Positions 46,087-52,613 of a stretch of 64,000 nt of DNA are shown here, in pieces. Position numbers and translations under genes: made by a program. The notes beneath the pieces were generated by a model. The model ran no database searches, was not told the origin of the DNA, and saw only the letters and a program-made list of their open reading frames with translations. The stretch is from Bacteroidota bacterium. Lineage in GTDB: Bacteria; Bacteroidota; Bacteroidia; B-17B0; Aurantibacillaceae. Numbering within the stretch: position 1 is the stretch's first letter; every line of letters begins with the position of its first letter. The stretch is taken from assembly GCA_018267825.1 (NCBI GenBank), contig JAFDXR010000006.1:1-64000 (forward strand), written 5' to 3'.

Positions 46087-46830
46087 TTAATTAATGATCT
46101 GTCCTTTGTTATTCTCCAGTTTTTCCCTCCATTGGCGGAGTTCCCCGGATGTCTGCCCGACCCAATCAGTTATCTCACCCACAATTTTCAGGGGTTCTGT
46201 ACTGCGATAAGACTGCGTCATATTTCCGGGAAATTTCTTATTCGTTACGTTCGGATCATTCTCAAAACGTCCCGTAGGCTCCACGATATAAACGCGTTCA
46301 CGCCCAGCTCCTTTGGCCAGGGCTGCAGCCAGCCCTGCACCATTTACCAGGGCCGTAAAATAAATATGGTTCATCACAAGATCCGCCTCGTAGTTGGATT
46401 TGCTGCCGGCCGTGAGAAAATCGCCCACCTTTAAATCGGCTTTTGTTCCATGATAAAAAGGGCCTGTGCAGGAAGGCTCATCGGTATACGAAGCCGCTGT
46501 TTGGCGGTGTTTTTGGGCAGCAGCATGGTCGCCCAGCTCCTCACAGCATTTGGCAAGGTCGGAATATATAAGGGGAAAAGCACTCTTAACCGAATCGTCG
46601 TTTATGTTCAAGGCCATTTGCAAAACAGTCTCTTTCCACTTCAAGCGATCGGCAACATGTTTCTGATGGCGCGATACATAATGGGCGGCAATGAATTTTT
46701 CGAAATCCAATGTGGCTTCGTTCCAGGCACGGAGAAATACTTCAGCCGCTTCTTCCGGCTGGCCTTTTCCTTCCAGTGCCATTCCCTGGATACAGAGTTT
46801 AACAATTGTGTTGGTCGGGTCGAATGCCAT
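46087..46830 (-). CDS. arr: Rifampin ADP-ribosyltransferase (Arr) with N-terminal helical domain
   Basis: A 247-residue protein. Residues 122-240 match Arr enzymes almost end to end (GPFYHGTKADLKVGD, SNYE, NHIYFTAL, VYIVEPTG, DPNVTNKKFPGN, SYRS-EPLKIVGE), which inactivate rifamycins by ADP-ribosylation with NAD. Residues 1-118 are an extra all-helical domain like a TPR fold, absent from the approximately 140-residue classical Arr. The rest of the neighbourhood shows no mobile element, so it appears to be a native chromosomal gene. Resistance needs testing. Confidence 0.85.
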   Translation of the reverse strand: MAFDPTNTIVKLCIQGMALEGKGQPEEAAEVFLRAWNEATLDFEKFIAAHYVSRHQKHVADRLKWKETVLQMALNINDDSVKSAFPLIYSDLAKCCEELGDHAAAQKHRQTAASYTDEPSCTGPFYHGTKADLKVGDFLTAGSKSNYEADLVMNHIYFTALVNGAGLAAALAKGAGRERVYIVEPTGRFENDPNVTNKKFPGNMTQSYRSTEPLKIVGEITDWVGQTSGELRQWREKLENNKGQIIN

Positions 46831-46874: not shown

Positions 46875-47702
46875 CTATTCCAGAATGATCTTCTGATATT
46901 GCGATTGGCTGCCTTCTTCAATTAAAACAAAGTACATACCTCTTTCCAGGTCTTTCACATTTATTTTTTCGTTGCTTTGCGAAGACTTCATAGTGCTTAT
47001 GGTTTGTCCCAATTGATTCAACAATGTAATGGTGTGTTCGGCTGAAGGATTGCTGAACTTAATATCCAGCTGGTTGGTAGCGGGGTTTGGGGATACGGTA
47101 TTATTATTTACCAGGTTGTTTTTTTGTATACCGGTTGTAACAGGGGGCTGAATGCAGCAATTGCCGCCAGCTGATACATTCTGAGGCGAAGTACTTAAAT
47201 AGCATCCGTACTGTGTCTTGTGATAATAAAATGTCCCGCCGAACATGGCCATAAAGTAATCGGTGATCTGGTCGGGTGTATTACAGCCCCCCTGGCTGGT
47301 GGTGTTGCTGCAGGAATAATTGCATATAACAGACGTATAGCCATAGGAGTTACTATATGTTACCGTCGGAGCGAAAATAATACTTGTGGATGTGGTAGGC
47401 GCCACATGCAGCGTAGTGGTAGGAACGCCCGGGCTGCAATGTGTACTCGGACTACTATTATAACCAGCGTAAACAACCTGCACCACATTGGCTGAATAAG
47501 TTCCGGTTACCTGAACATCGATGGCTTCATAACTGACAATTCCAATTTTGAGGTTCGGAATATTCTGGTCGACATTAATTTGCAAAAATCCTCCATCGTA
47601 ATTCGAATAGATGATCACGTTACCGCTCGCGTTGCAAAAGCTTTGAGCCCTTGACAGCATAGACAGAGTAACCAGAAATAAACAGGTGTAAAGTAGTTTC
47701 AT
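46875..47702 (-). CDS. Secreted protein with T9SS type A sorting domain
   Basis: A 275-residue protein from ATG 47702 (signal peptide MKLLYTCLFLVTLSMLSRAQ). The middle has several cysteines (CNYSCSN, GGNCCIQ), and the end (VSPNPATNQLDIKFSNPS, LERGMYFVLIEEGSQ) is a T9SS C-terminal domain, so it should be exported and anchored at the cell surface. An upstream ATG at 47801 would put the signal inside. Function of the body is unknown. Confidence 0.85.
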   Translation of the reverse strand: MKLLYTCLFLVTLSMLSRAQSFCNASGNVIIYSNYDGGFLQINVDQNIPNLKIGIVSYEAIDVQVTGTYSANVVQVVYAGYNSSPSTHCSPGVPTTTLHVAPTTSTSIIFAPTVTYSNSYGYTSVICNYSCSNTTSQGGCNTPDQITDYFMAMFGGTFYYHKTQYGCYLSTSPQNVSAGGNCCIQPPVTTGIQKNNLVNNNTVSPNPATNQLDIKFSNPSAEHTITLLNQLGQTISTMKSSQSNEKINVKDLERGMYFVLIEEGSQSQYQKIILE

Positions 47703-47859
47703 AGAAGTTTGTTTTAGGTGGTGAGGGATATTTAACAAACTTAGTAAAAGTCTGCTTATATCAAACCAGGTTTCCTGAAAAATGACAAACAATGCGTCCA
47801 CATGCTTCTGCGGTTTCCTGAAACAATCCGTTTTATTTTACCGGCAATACTTCATTTCA

Positions 47860-49269
47860 TTAACCGGGTAATTGATAATTCAACGAACCGTTTATATAGG
47901 TCAGCTCCATAAATAGTTTAATAAACTTCAGTTTATATTCCGCCAGTTTTACTTCTGCATCCAACCACTTATTCTCGCGTGAATTAAGCATGAACAAAGA
48001 ACTTTCGCCTCCTGTAAATTTTAATCTTTCCGCTTCAAGAAGCAATTTACTGTAGGTCAGAGAGCGCTCTGCATGACTGATCTGTCCGGCTACAATATGG
48101 ATGGCTTCCTGCAGGTATTTTCTTTTAAACGTCAGTTGATTTTGTTTGTTGGCCGTTTCCAGTTCATTGTTTTTAACTTCCAGTGCAGACATTTTATATT
48201 CATTCCGTGGTTTTCTCAAAAACAATGGAAAGGAAAAATTGGCGCCCCATTTATAGGCATTCGCATTAAAACCTGCATAATTCAACGTATTCGGCGTGTT
48301 CAAAAAATTGTAATTCAGGTCGAGTACCGGTTTTATCATTTCACGCTTCAGTCTTTTTTCCGCCTCCAGTATCTTCTGCCTGGATACATATTGGGAAATA
48401 ATGGGGTTATTGCTTCCTTCAAAAATCATGGCCTGTTGCACCTGTTTAAGAACAGACAAATAGACCGATTCGAGGCTGTCTGACAAATGACTTGCAGAAA
48501 GTGCCACCTGACCTGTCATTGGATTTAATACAGACAATTCATTCAACTTTTTTACAAGCTCCATACTTACAGCCTGTTTATCGAGCAGGCGGCCCTGATA
48601 AAGAATAGCAGCCTCAATGGTATCGACCGAAGGTCTTTCGCCGATTGCCGAAAGGTCTGCCACTCCCTTCAGACGCTGATCCGCAAGATTGGTGAAGTAA
48701 GCATACAGGCCATTCATTTTTTTGGTAAAAAGCGCCTCCACATAGGTATTGGAAGCGGCGAACAAAAGTTCATTGAACTGTATCTTTTGTTCAGCAGTAA
48801 AATAATCGGCATAATGCCCGGCTTTTATGAATTCAGCCCGGCGTTTATCAAACATCAATCCCTGAAGCAAACTGGCTTCTAGGCCAATGTATGGAAGACC
48901 AGCAGAGGGCGTATTTTTTTCAGGATTCAAATAAACGCCCTGCCCGTATTGATATCCCACTTTCAGGTATTGCGCTGTAAATAATGGCTGCTTTAATTCT
49001 GCATTCCCAAATGTGTAATAATTGGAGGAGTTAAACTGTTTGCTTTCCATACCTGCCGACAACAGCGGATCATAGTTCCCCCGGGCAGCGTTGAAAAGTG
49101 ATTGTCCATAGGCTCTGCTATTCTCTGCTTTGCAGGCCAATGGATTAGACTCCCTGATCGCATCCAGAAAAGAATTATAATTGTAAGACACATCTGGTTG
49201 TGACACACAGATTGCACTAAACGCAACGAATACTATACTTACTTTATTTCTTGTCAGAAACCGCATCAT
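47860..49269 (-). CDS. TolC-family outer-membrane efflux protein
   Basis: A TolC-like protein of 469 residues from the preferred ATG 49269 (signal peptide then SQPDVSYNYNSFLDAIRESNPL). It forms the outer-membrane channel for the ABC/HlyD fusion encoded just upstream; the start overlaps that gene's end by about 25 nt. An ATG at 49350 gives a longer non-signal leader. The typical helical pattern and ends are visible, but the export substrate is not. Confidence 0.85.
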   Translation of the reverse strand: MMRFLTRNKVSIVFVAFSAICVSQPDVSYNYNSFLDAIRESNPLACKAENSRAYGQSLFNAARGNYDPLLSAGMESKQFNSSNYYTFGNAELKQPLFTAQYLKVGYQYGQGVYLNPEKNTPSAGLPYIGLEASLLQGLMFDKRRAEFIKAGHYADYFTAEQKIQFNELLFAASNTYVEALFTKKMNGLYAYFTNLADQRLKGVADLSAIGERPSVDTIEAAILYQGRLLDKQAVSMELVKKLNELSVLNPMTGQVALSASHLSDSLESVYLSVLKQVQQAMIFEGSNNPIISQYVSRQKILEAEKRLKREMIKPVLDLNYNFLNTPNTLNYAGFNANAYKWGANFSFPLFLRKPRNEYKMSALEVKNNELETANKQNQLTFKRKYLQEAIHIVAGQISHAERSLTYSKLLLEAERLKFTGGESSLFMLNSRENKWLDAEVKLAEYKLKFIKLFMELTYINGSLNYQLPG

Positions 49270-51478
49270 TTTTAACCTTGTTTTTTGTTTTATAAAACTC
49301 CGGCGGAAATCCATTCGCTTTTCGCCATAATTCGTAAACCAGCGGAACATTCCTCAGCAGGGCAAATCCCTTAACGCCACCGCCGATCTGAATGGCATCG
49401 GGCCAGCGATTGCCTTTGTTGATTGCCAGGACCCTGAATTTTCCATTGGATGATATAGCTTTGTCGAATGTGACTATTTCGGCACTAAAGCTACCATAGC
49501 TCAATCCGGGCCAGCCGGAGAATACGAATGCAGGCCAGCCATCAAAGATCAACTGCACGGTTTGTCCTTTTTCAATGAGCGGCAAATCCACCGGGTCGAT
49601 ATACAATTCAACCGCCTGTTCTTTCTGAACCGGCACAATGTTACAGATCATACCACCTTCCTTCACAATTTCACCAATGCCTTTCAATGCCATGTTGTTC
49701 ACATAACCATCCTGTGGGGCCAACACATAATAGTATGTATTTCTGAGAGCGTAGTTTGAAAGCTGATTCTGTAACTTGGTCAAAGAACCCTCAGCTTCAT
49801 AATACATAGATATTGTGCTGAACTTATCGGATTCCGCTTTCATGAGTTTTTCATTGTATTCCTGGGTTGTGGCATGAAGCTCTATCTCCGCGATTAAAAG
49901 TTCGTTTTTTGTGGCGATGACTTTATTCTCAGCCGCAATCCGCCTGGCATAGACCTCCTGTACTTTCACTTTCCTGTTTTCCAGTTCCGTTTTTGAAATA
50001 ACGCCTTTTGACAGCAACTCTTCAAAGCGTTTCATTTGTTCTTCTGCCACTTTATAATTGCCCGCCGTGGCCTTTACCTCTGCACTGTCGCTCGCCAGTT
50101 TCGCCTTTATCTGTATGATCTTATTCTTTATCTGTTCCGTTTTGAGGCGAAGCGACTTGTTAATAGCGTCGATCTGATTATTGATGGCTGCTGTCTTGCT
50201 TTCGTAAGAGCGGAGAGAAACTTCCTTGGATTTCACTTGTGCTTCGGATCTCTGCACCAGCAGCGAATCCATATACTCCTCCTTGATCTCCGATATAAAA
50301 GCAATCGTATCATTCTTCTTCACGAAGTCACCATCCCGGATGAACCATTTCTCGATCCTTCCTGCGATCCTGGAGGTGACCTGCTGGGGCTTGTTTTCCG
50401 GGTTCAGCACACTCACTTCGCCCGACATGCTCACACTCTGGGTCCAGGGTAGAAAAAGCGTTACCCCAAAAGCCAGTAACAGTGCATAAAACATCCATTT
50501 CATGGGCCTGGTAAAATAGGGACGATACACTTTTGCTGTTGCGCGCAGGTAATTCGTTTCTTCGGAACGCAGGTAAGATTCTTGCGGATTCTTCTCAAAC
50601 AGAAGCTCCAGTTTATATAAGCCAGTCACCATGTCGTAGCACGTACCAAGACCACTGACCAGCTTTTCAACTGAATTAATAACGAGGAGTATGATCACTT
50701 CAGAAGCCACAAACTGGCCAATATTCAGCTCTCCGGCCTGAACAAGATATGCCCCAAAGAAGAGCAAAACACCGGCAAAGAGAATTTTGAAAAACAATAT
50801 TCCTTTGTACTGCTTTTCAAATGCATGGTAATACTCCTTCCTATAATCAATATACCGGTTCAGCTCAGCATCGATTTGCGCTTCGTGGAGTTCCCCGGAA
50901 CTCAGGGTTGCAAAGATCTGATACTTCTGCGTGGAGGTGTTCAGATTGGCGTTCTGAGCCCGTTTGCCATAACAGGCAATGATAAGATAGAAAACCACTC
51001 CGAGAACAACAGAGAACAGAAAGAACCAATTGCTGTAAGCCGGAAGCAAAAGAATCCCAAAAACCACGCTTATAACTGAAAATGAAAAATCAAGCAGAAT
51101 TTTACCAATGCCTTTCTGCAGGGTGACCACTTCAAAAAAATGCGCGATCTTTTTATGCACCCCACGCTCATTGCCGGTAACCATTGCGATGCGCTCCGTG
51201 AGGTTGCAAAATATGCGCTCCTGAAGCGTTTCATTGAGCCGCATTTGCCATAGCTGCAAAAGACCGATGAACAATATTACAGCAAGCGTCAGCAAACTTA
51301 ACAATACGAGTGAAGCAGAAAAACGACCGGCCATGGTGTATGTAATAATTCCCTGGATCGTCAGCGGAATGGTCATATACAACACGCCCTGGAGCATGGC
51401 AAGGGCATAAATATTATAAACCACTTTCTTTTCCCTGCTGAGCCACTTAAACAGCAGTTTTGTTTTATCACTTATCAT
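49244..51478 (-). CDS. ABC-exporter transmembrane domain fused to HlyD adaptor, no ATPase
   Basis: A 744-residue protein. Residues 1-300 are an ABC-exporter membrane domain (helices about 20-45, 55-75, 125-170, 228-275; NSVEKLVSGLGTCYDMVTGLYKLEL is typical of the end of such domains). Instead of the nucleotide-binding domain, residue 305 onward leads to a new membrane helix (327-346) and a HlyD adaptor: lipoyl part (365-395), long coiled coil (about 400-600, with RFEELLSKGVISKTELE near 484-500 for TolC contact) and beta-barrel. No Walker A, signature or Walker B is present. Next to TolC it looks like an exporter whose ATPase is missing or acts in trans. Confidence 0.85.
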   Translation of the reverse strand: MISDKTKLLFKWLSREKKVVYNIYALAMLQGVLYMTIPLTIQGIITYTMAGRFSASLVLLSLLTLAVILFIGLLQLWQMRLNETLQERIFCNLTERIAMVTGNERGVHKKIAHFFEVVTLQKGIGKILLDFSFSVISVVFGILLLPAYSNWFFLFSVVLGVVFYLIIACYGKRAQNANLNTSTQKYQIFATLSSGELHEAQIDAELNRYIDYRKEYYHAFEKQYKGILFFKILFAGVLLFFGAYLVQAGELNIGQFVASEVIILLVINSVEKLVSGLGTCYDMVTGLYKLELLFEKNPQESYLRSEETNYLRATAKVYRPYFTRPMKWMFYALLLAFGVTLFLPWTQSVSMSGEVSVLNPENKPQQVTSRIAGRIEKWFIRDGDFVKKNDTIAFISEIKEEYMDSLLVQRSEAQVKSKEVSLRSYESKTAAINNQIDAINKSLRLKTEQIKNKIIQIKAKLASDSAEVKATAGNYKVAEEQMKRFEELLSKGVISKTELENRKVKVQEVYARRIAAENKVIATKNELLIAEIELHATTQEYNEKLMKAESDKFSTISMYYEAEGSLTKLQNQLSNYALRNTYYYVLAPQDGYVNNMALKGIGEIVKEGGMICNIVPVQKEQAVELYIDPVDLPLIEKGQTVQLIFDGWPAFVFSGWPGLSYGSFSAEIVTFDKAISSNGKFRVLAINKGNRWPDAIQIGGGVKGFALLRNVPLVYELWRKANGFPPEFYKTKNKVKNDAVSDKK

Positions 51479-51656: not shown

Positions 51657-52613
51657 TTATTTGATGAATGACAAATACAAGGGCATACCAAGCGTGATGT
51701 TCAGCGGGAATGTAACCGCAAGGGCCATGGGCAGATAAAGGCCCGGATTTGCTTTAGGTACTGCCAGTTTCATGGCCGCCGGTACAGCAATGTAGGAAGC
51801 ACTTGCCGCCAGGACCGCAAAAATAAACCGGTTGGCTACATCTGTTGTCACGAAACCACTGAGCAATGCAACCACCGAGCCATTAACCAGGGGAACTATG
51901 ATTGCAAATAGCAGGGGAAATAAACCATGAGAAGAAAAGGAACTTAATTTTCTTCCGCTGGAGATGCCCATATCGAGCAGGAAAATAGCCAGGAAACCTT
52001 TAAAGATATCGGTTGTAAAAGGTTTAATTCCTTCTGCCTGCTTGGCATTCGCAAAGTATCCGATAACCAGGCTGCCAACAATCAATAACACACTCCCGTT
52101 GGTAAAGGAATGCAGGATCAGTGACTTGCGGTTAATCACTTTCGACTCATCCTGCGCATAGATAGAGAAAAGCACGAGGGCAGAGATAATAGCCGGCGAC
52201 TCCATCAATGCCATCACCGCTACCATGTGGCCATGCAATTCCATTTTTTGAGACTCGAGGTAAGAGACCCCGGTTACAAATGTGACGGCGCTAACCGATC
52301 CATAAGCTGCTGCAATGGCCACCGCATCGTAAACCGACAACTTCCGCCTGAGGATAAAAAACGTGTATACCGGAATCAAGACACTCAGGCCGACACCAAA
52401 CAACATCGTAAACAGGATTTCAGAGGTCATTGTTTCATTCGACAATTCCTGACCGCCTTTAAATCCAATGGCAAACAGAAGATAGAGTGAAATAAACTTG
52501 GACGAGTTCGCAGGGATCTCGAGATCACTTTTGATTTTTACTGCGATGATGCCCAAAAGAAAAAACATAAACGCGGGGTTTGTAATATTGGATATAAGTA
52601 AATCCAGATTCAT
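51657..52613 (-). CDS. Sodium-dependent bicarbonate transporter, SbtA family
   Basis: A 318-residue integral membrane protein with about ten helices, arranged as two inverted halves. It matches the SbtA-type bicarbonate permease family (for example AAAYGSVSAVTFVTG, PAFMFFLLGI, FLLDMGISSG, AASASYIAVPAAMK). These take up HCO3- with Na+. The SbtB PII-like partner of cyanobacteria is not present next to it. It is the fourth gene from the end of a tight operon, 5 nt after dihydroorotase. Confidence 0.88.
   Translation of the reverse strand: MNLDLLISNITNPAFMFFLLGIIAVKIKSDLEIPANSSKFISLYLLFAIGFKGGQELSNETMTSEILFTMLFGVGLSVLIPVYTFFILRRKLSVYDAVAIAAAYGSVSAVTFVTGVSYLESQKMELHGHMVAVMALMESPAIISALVLFSIYAQDESKVINRKSLILHSFTNGSVLLIVGSLVIGYFANAKQAEGIKPFTTDIFKGFLAIFLLDMGISSGRKLSSFSSHGLFPLLFAIIVPLVNGSVVALLSGFVTTDVANRFIFAVLAASASYIAVPAAMKLAVPKANPGLYLPMALAVTFPLNITLGMPLYLSFIK

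Follow-up and report, generated by a model that had tools for sequence, protein, structure and literature searches.

A Bacteroidota gene joining an ABC exporter membrane domain to a HlyD adaptor without an ATPase domain: a conserved fusion possibly driven by an ion gradient

What can an ABC exporter membrane domain do when it is joined directly to its adaptor protein and carries no ATPase domain? The question is raised by a gene in a 64,000-nucleotide stretch of a Bacteroidota genome (contig JAFDXR010000006.1, positions 1 to 64,000; hereafter the window). The original prediction, made from the letters alone, was that a reading frame of 744 codons passes from an exporter transmembrane domain (TMD) into a HlyD-type adaptor without any nucleotide-binding domain (NBD), beside a TolC gene, and that this was either a deletion product, namely a new architecture using an ATPase in trans, or an inactive or moonlighting assembly. 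The domain order, the missing ATPase domain, the TolC neighbour and the open frame all stood in the ORF call, the Pfam and NCBIfam searches and the AlphaFold model, with one amendment: the gene is on the minus strand, and the plus-strand translation of 49244-51478 is full of stops. The features of the locus are as follows.

49244..51478, minus strand: TMD::HlyD fusion gene, 744 aa, without NBD (ORF call, Pfam, relatives, tree, AlphaFold model)
50582..51478, minus strand: ABC-exporter (type IV) transmembrane domain, residues 1-299 (Pfam ABC_membrane; structure matches to the TMDs of TmrAB, HlyB and PCAT1)
51146..51190, minus strand: tip of ICL1, residues 97-111, shortened; modelled as a turn at 101-106, no coupling helix (alignment, model)
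50864..50920, minus strand: tip of ICL2, residues 187-205, shortened; modelled as a turn at 194-198, no coupling helix (alignment, model)
50699..50701, minus strand: codon of the invariant TM6 Glu260 (100% of fusions, 99% of full-length relatives, absent in 6 active exporters)
50666..50668, minus strand: codon of the invariant TM6 Glu271 (100% of fusions, 96% of full-length relatives, absent in 6 active exporters)
50510..50581, minus strand: linker, residues 300-323, at the site of the NBD in relatives (alignment with relatives, model)
49247..50509, minus strand: HlyD-type membrane fusion protein (Pfam, NCBIfam, AlphaFold model)
47860..49350, minus strand: TolC-family outer-membrane factor (Pfam OEP, 55.5 bits; TolC-family neighbour in all loci read)

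In the Pfam scan, the 744-aa protein scored above cut-off for ABC_membrane (31.5 bits) and for HlyD_3 (35.7 bits); HlyD_D23 also matched in the HlyD part, and no ABC_tran was detected. Walker A and the signature motif were absent from all 21 fusions checked. Among the NCBIfam models, HlyD/MFP models covered residues 329-655 (TIGR01843 over 329-649, below its subfamily cut-off), and type I exporters were matched weakly, in their TMD parts. Searching PDB sequences with phmmer brought up nothing related to the fusion, and a BFVD search gave generic viral ABC proteins alone. The structure prediction proposed at the outset yielded a type IV exporter TMD, a linker and an HlyD part in a monomeric AlphaFold model of modest confidence (mean pLDDT 72). 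In this model, transmembrane helices with cytosolic extensions span residues 2-293 (helices 2-15, 17-49, 55-100, 107-148, 151-193, 199-247 and 253-293) and are followed by a loop and the HlyD membrane helix (324-342), a barrel-sandwich (lipoyl) part and a long hairpin (helices 407-490 and 496-577), so that the C-terminal half has the membrane helix, barrel-sandwich and hairpin of an HlyD adaptor. Residues 1-299 matched solved type IV ABC exporters with structural Z scores of 20-24, among them TmrAB (24.1), HlyB of the HlyB/HlyD complex 8dck (22.2) and PCAT1 (21.9).

The same in-frame architecture, sought in other genomes, was found full-length in 34 of the 87 genomes of the window's own family (51-81% identity to the window), with long partial matches in two further genomes of that family, and also in two genomes of other families (f38 and f11); named records with the fusion were uncultured Bacteroidota MAGs from other assemblies. 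About ten genomes of the window's family have the separate-gene form instead, and none of the 87 had both. This recurrence excludes chance or misassembly. That the frame is an error of assembly or sequencing, or belongs to a pseudogene in decay, has a negligible probability: we found no point in favour of it, and it is refuted by the identical open frame in many independent assemblies, including the 2-contig assembly G042, and by purifying selection on both halves. The close pairs with finite dS gave dN/dS values of 0.035-0.07 for the TMD and 0.024-0.07 for the adaptor. The membrane half is thus under strong purifying selection, and since it is constrained nearly as much as the adaptor, the inactive remnant offered as one option by the original prediction is unsupported, while a deletion leading to a new and selected architecture agrees with both the conserved clade and these ratios.

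In midpoint-rooted trees, the 38 distinct fusion proteins formed one clade against 78 full-length relatives (SH-aLRT 100), and a subset of them again formed one clade in a more careful tree (SH-aLRT and bootstrap 100/100); the fusion is of single origin. L137 and L138, from other families and at first sight separate fusion events, were rejected as such, as both fall inside the single fusion clade. Rooting the TMD tree with active exporters was uninformative, with one control matched on a very long branch. A literature search, mostly of sources outside subscription journals, returned nothing on point for a TMD-HlyD fusion or a pseudo-ABC family.

What had been lost with the NBD became apparent from the separate-gene relatives, in which a TMD-NBD protein is encoded directly upstream of HlyD and which occur across the phylum; the adaptor profile A1 matches 211 of 396 genomes of the class and 118 of 196 genera. 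An LSGGQ-like signature was present in none of 88 full-length relatives, compared with all six active exporters of the window's genome, and Walker A was kept in 62 of the 88 (both by alignment-free motif search). Of 78 relatives compared by alignment, 4 kept the Q-loop Gln, 4 the H-loop His and 15 the catalytic Glu, and 53 had a full Walker A. Walker A was also lost in one subclade of the full-length relatives, and the loss of NBD motifs was alike in members from other classes of the phylum. These motif patterns indicate that the ATPase domain of the family had lost its catalytic motifs before the deletion and that no active ATPase was lost in the fusions. Since Walker A persists in most of the relatives searched, those bearing it may still bind nucleotide, perhaps in a regulatory role. 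The possibility that homologues all keep the ATPase domain, named beforehand as a refutation, did not materialize: many keep it as a pseudo-ATPase, and many are without it. Some full-length relatives (L076-L081, L090, L091 and others) are extended at the N-terminus by about 150 residues ahead of the TMD, in the place of the C39 peptidase-like domain of PCAT-type transporters; Pfam matched no such domain in these extensions.

The NBD is also missing in another family, f63, where TMD-only ORFs (open frame 334-424 aa) occur in 36 of the 111 matching genomes; here the domain loss was not accompanied by fusion to HlyD. In all eight NBD-less f63 loci read, the genes for the TMD-only protein, HlyD and TolC are directly consecutive, with a divergent TetR gene in four of them.

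L245-L249 and L251-L253, in genomes G853, G891, G872, G848, G356, G310 and G817: NBD-less f63 operons, TMD-only protein of 332-353 aa

Two of these genomes (G891 and G872) are single contigs. The f63 TMD-only proteins formed one clade, apart from the fusions and adjoining full-length f63 members, and NBD presence accordingly showed two state changes on the midpoint-rooted tree, of which two independent losses would be the more plausible reading. One genome, G848, has three paralogous operons (L248, L249 and L250), two NBD-less and one full-length.

If the family's own ATPase domain is degenerate or gone, might an ATPase act in trans, as the original prediction had allowed? The loops on which an NBD would dock bear directly on this. 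The median lengths of ICL1 and ICL2 are 25 and 22 residues in the fusions, compared with 29 and 29 in full-length relatives. Identity within the fusions was 0.33 for ICL1 and 0.20 for ICL2 against 0.62 for the remaining TMD, and the corresponding values within full-length relatives were 0.53, 0.45 and 0.51. The NBD-docking coupling helices were thus not recovered in the fusion, the shortened and decayed loops being turns in the modest-confidence model. In the model of a full-length relative from Flavobacterium, a short ICL1 helix (104-110) appears at low confidence, and this helix alone was used from that model, the NBD being unusable at a pLDDT of about 30. Loop decay is not an invariable sequel of NBD loss, since in the f63 TMD-only proteins ICL2 is relaxed (0.37) and ICL1 is conserved (0.73).

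A partner ATPase was likewise sought with a profile of the family NBD, which scored 352 bits in G033, whose genome has the full-length form. In 16 fusion genomes, its best matches reached at most 170 bits and lay inside TMD-NBD proteins, and standalone NBDs scored at most 106 bits among the matches listed; no family-specific orphan NBD was found in these 16 genomes with this profile, nor in the NBD-less f63 genomes (full-length f63 genomes, 262-268 bits), and no NBD gene lies in the operon in the fusion loci read. Among such scores, an orphan NBD that had decayed as far as the Walker-A-less domain of G017 (86 bits) would pass unnoticed; one in that state is not expected to hydrolyse ATP.

Two readings keep ATP as the energy source. 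A separately encoded NBD could dock on the fused TMD and power it, in line with the 40 ABC_tran matches in the window's genome, many of them in short proteins, and with the split TMD and NBD genes of other ABC families (PMC13316013). However, the selective decay of both docking loops and the lack of a family-specific orphan ATPase in the 16 fusion genomes make an ATPase in trans unlikely as far as sequences can tell; the fusion model has no coupling helices, the f63 genomes gave the same negative search, and the NBD of the relatives is itself without catalytic motifs. We regard the docking reading as quite improbable, and the in trans part of the original prediction found no support. The other possibility is a heterodimer of the fused TMD with an intact half-transporter that is encoded elsewhere and supplies the ATPase. 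Six TMD-NBD half-transporters are encoded in the window's genome, and exporters with one degenerate half, such as TmrAB, are known (PMC8277102). This arrangement is very improbable in our estimate, given the decayed docking loops and the export operons read for the fusion and f63, which carry one half-transporter gene each. Besides, the usual ATP sandwich dimer is not formed by one NBD alone, and the lone NBD of such a pair would be unable to make it.

The TMD itself offered a candidate for the energy coupling. Five charged residues (E83, K122, K231, E260 and E271) each occur in 71-78 of the 78 full-length relatives and are likewise invariant, or almost so, in the fusions. The six active exporters, controls that come from one genome, have none of the five. 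Conserved acidic TMD residues are also known in SbmA/BacA (the SLiPT group), an ABC exporter TMD without NBD or coupling helices that is thought to have descended from a full ABC transporter (PMC13316013), and MsbA deprived of its NBD moves ethidium with a pH gradient, though with poorer performance than the wild type (PMC4979069). Together with the HlyB/HlyD assembly described below, these points lead us to propose that the fusion is an ABC-derived tripartite exporter which, like SbmA, runs on an ion gradient; the balance of the evidence tilts modestly towards this reading, in which the energy source is inferred. The invariant charges could instead serve folding, gating or substrate binding.

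According to this proposal, one chain would provide both the inner-membrane engine and the adaptor of an exporter running from the inner membrane through HlyD to TolC. Its ancestors would be type I-secretion-like ABC exporters, a Bacteroidota family whose ATPase domain has lost its catalytic motifs, and in the fusion lineage the dead domain would have been deleted, the docking loops would have decayed and the TMD would have become joined to HlyD. The C-terminus of a TMD and the N-terminus of HlyD are both cytosolic. The HlyB/HlyD complex contains three dimers of HlyB and six copies of HlyD, a 1:1 ratio (PMC11026475), and a 1:1 fusion is sterically reasonable on that ground. The chains may thus pair as TMD dimers within a six-adaptor assembly and open alternately to both sides of the membrane, presumably in the direction of export, powered by a proton (or other ion) gradient through E83, K122, K231, E260 and E271.

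The TMD might not pump at all; it could be a scaffold that dimerises, a gate or a sensor for an HlyD-TolC conduit through which periplasmic substrates or the cargo of another partner would pass. The loss of the NBD in two lineages that kept the adaptor and TolC is in keeping with this, as is the better conservation of the adaptor half within the fusions (mean identity 0.65 vs 0.57 for the TMD). We nevertheless consider a scaffold doubtful, because many invariant residues of the TMD core and a full type IV exporter fold exceed the needs of a simple anchor, and the conserved charges sit in transmembrane helices.

Compared with known systems, the proposed ion-driven exporter is most like type I secretion (HlyB/HlyD with TolC; PrtD, LssB and PCAT types) in build, sharing the TMD fold, the HlyD-type adaptor, the adjacent TolC gene and the 1:1 ratio of TMD to adaptor. 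It differs in that the fusion has no NBD and its relatives have a pseudo-NBD, in that TMD and adaptor form one chain, and in that no substrate with a type I signal was identified for it. In logic it resembles SbmA/BacA, likewise an ABC TMD without NBD and coupling helices; the glutamate ladder of SLiPTs lines a cavity, and the fusion has the invariant E83, E260 and E271 in a model that is monomeric. SbmA is, however, an importer with extra TM0 helices and without an HlyD or TolC partner, and the SbmA_BacA model had no match in the fusion (Pfam scan, E <= 1). MsbA-MD and LmrA-MD, also TMDs alone of type IV ABC exporters, are laboratory truncations, whereas the fusion lost its NBD in nature, and many species share that loss. 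The Pfam family PF13748 (ABC_membrane_3), which describes transmembrane regions of ABC transporters, showed weak similarity to residues 16-180 (15.8 bits, below the cut-off of 27). The fusion is filed neither as an ABC exporter, since NBD and coupling helices, two defining features, are missing, nor as a SLiPT, since the sequence match is missing.

More broadly, there is in our judgement an even chance that tripartite exporters throughout the phylum switched from ATP to an ion gradient, with a pseudo-ATPase arising first and then at least two deletions, one of them with HlyD fusion. If so, the fusion and its TolC would be a two-gene secondary export pump spanning both membranes, and pseudo-ATPase, TMD without ATPase and TMD fused to the adaptor would form a natural staged series bearing on how a primary ABC exporter becomes a secondary transporter, a question discussed for SbmA. 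In Bacteroidota, many proteins that are encoded beside HlyD and TolC and are likely to be annotated as ATP-binding proteins of ABC transporters may not hydrolyse ATP, and the invariant charges would give a direct mutational handle on how such transporters are powered.

As for the operon, a TolC-family gene lies downstream of the fusion in all 21 loci read, including the window, where its translation probably begins close to 49269, within the 3' end of the fusion gene. A TetR-family gene stands beside the operon in 19 of the 21 (absent in the window and in L057); the TetR-like gene is usually divergent to the operon, suggesting that a small molecule or peptide is exported under regulation. In the window, an SbtA-like (Sbt_1) transporter gene (51657-52613) sits immediately upstream of the fusion, and at least two further loci (L069 and L085) have a gene of this type next to the export operon. 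A CutA1-like gene of about 100 aa recurs beside export operons (L056, L058-L060, L076-L079 and others) with both the fusion and the full-length form. On the other side, just downstream of the TolC gene, the product of 46875-47801 carries a C-terminal sorting domain for type IX secretion (Por_Secre_tail). The protein encoded at 46087-46830 combines a weak TPR-like part at its N-terminus with a strong C-terminal match to Arr-ms (rifampin ADP-ribosyltransferase).
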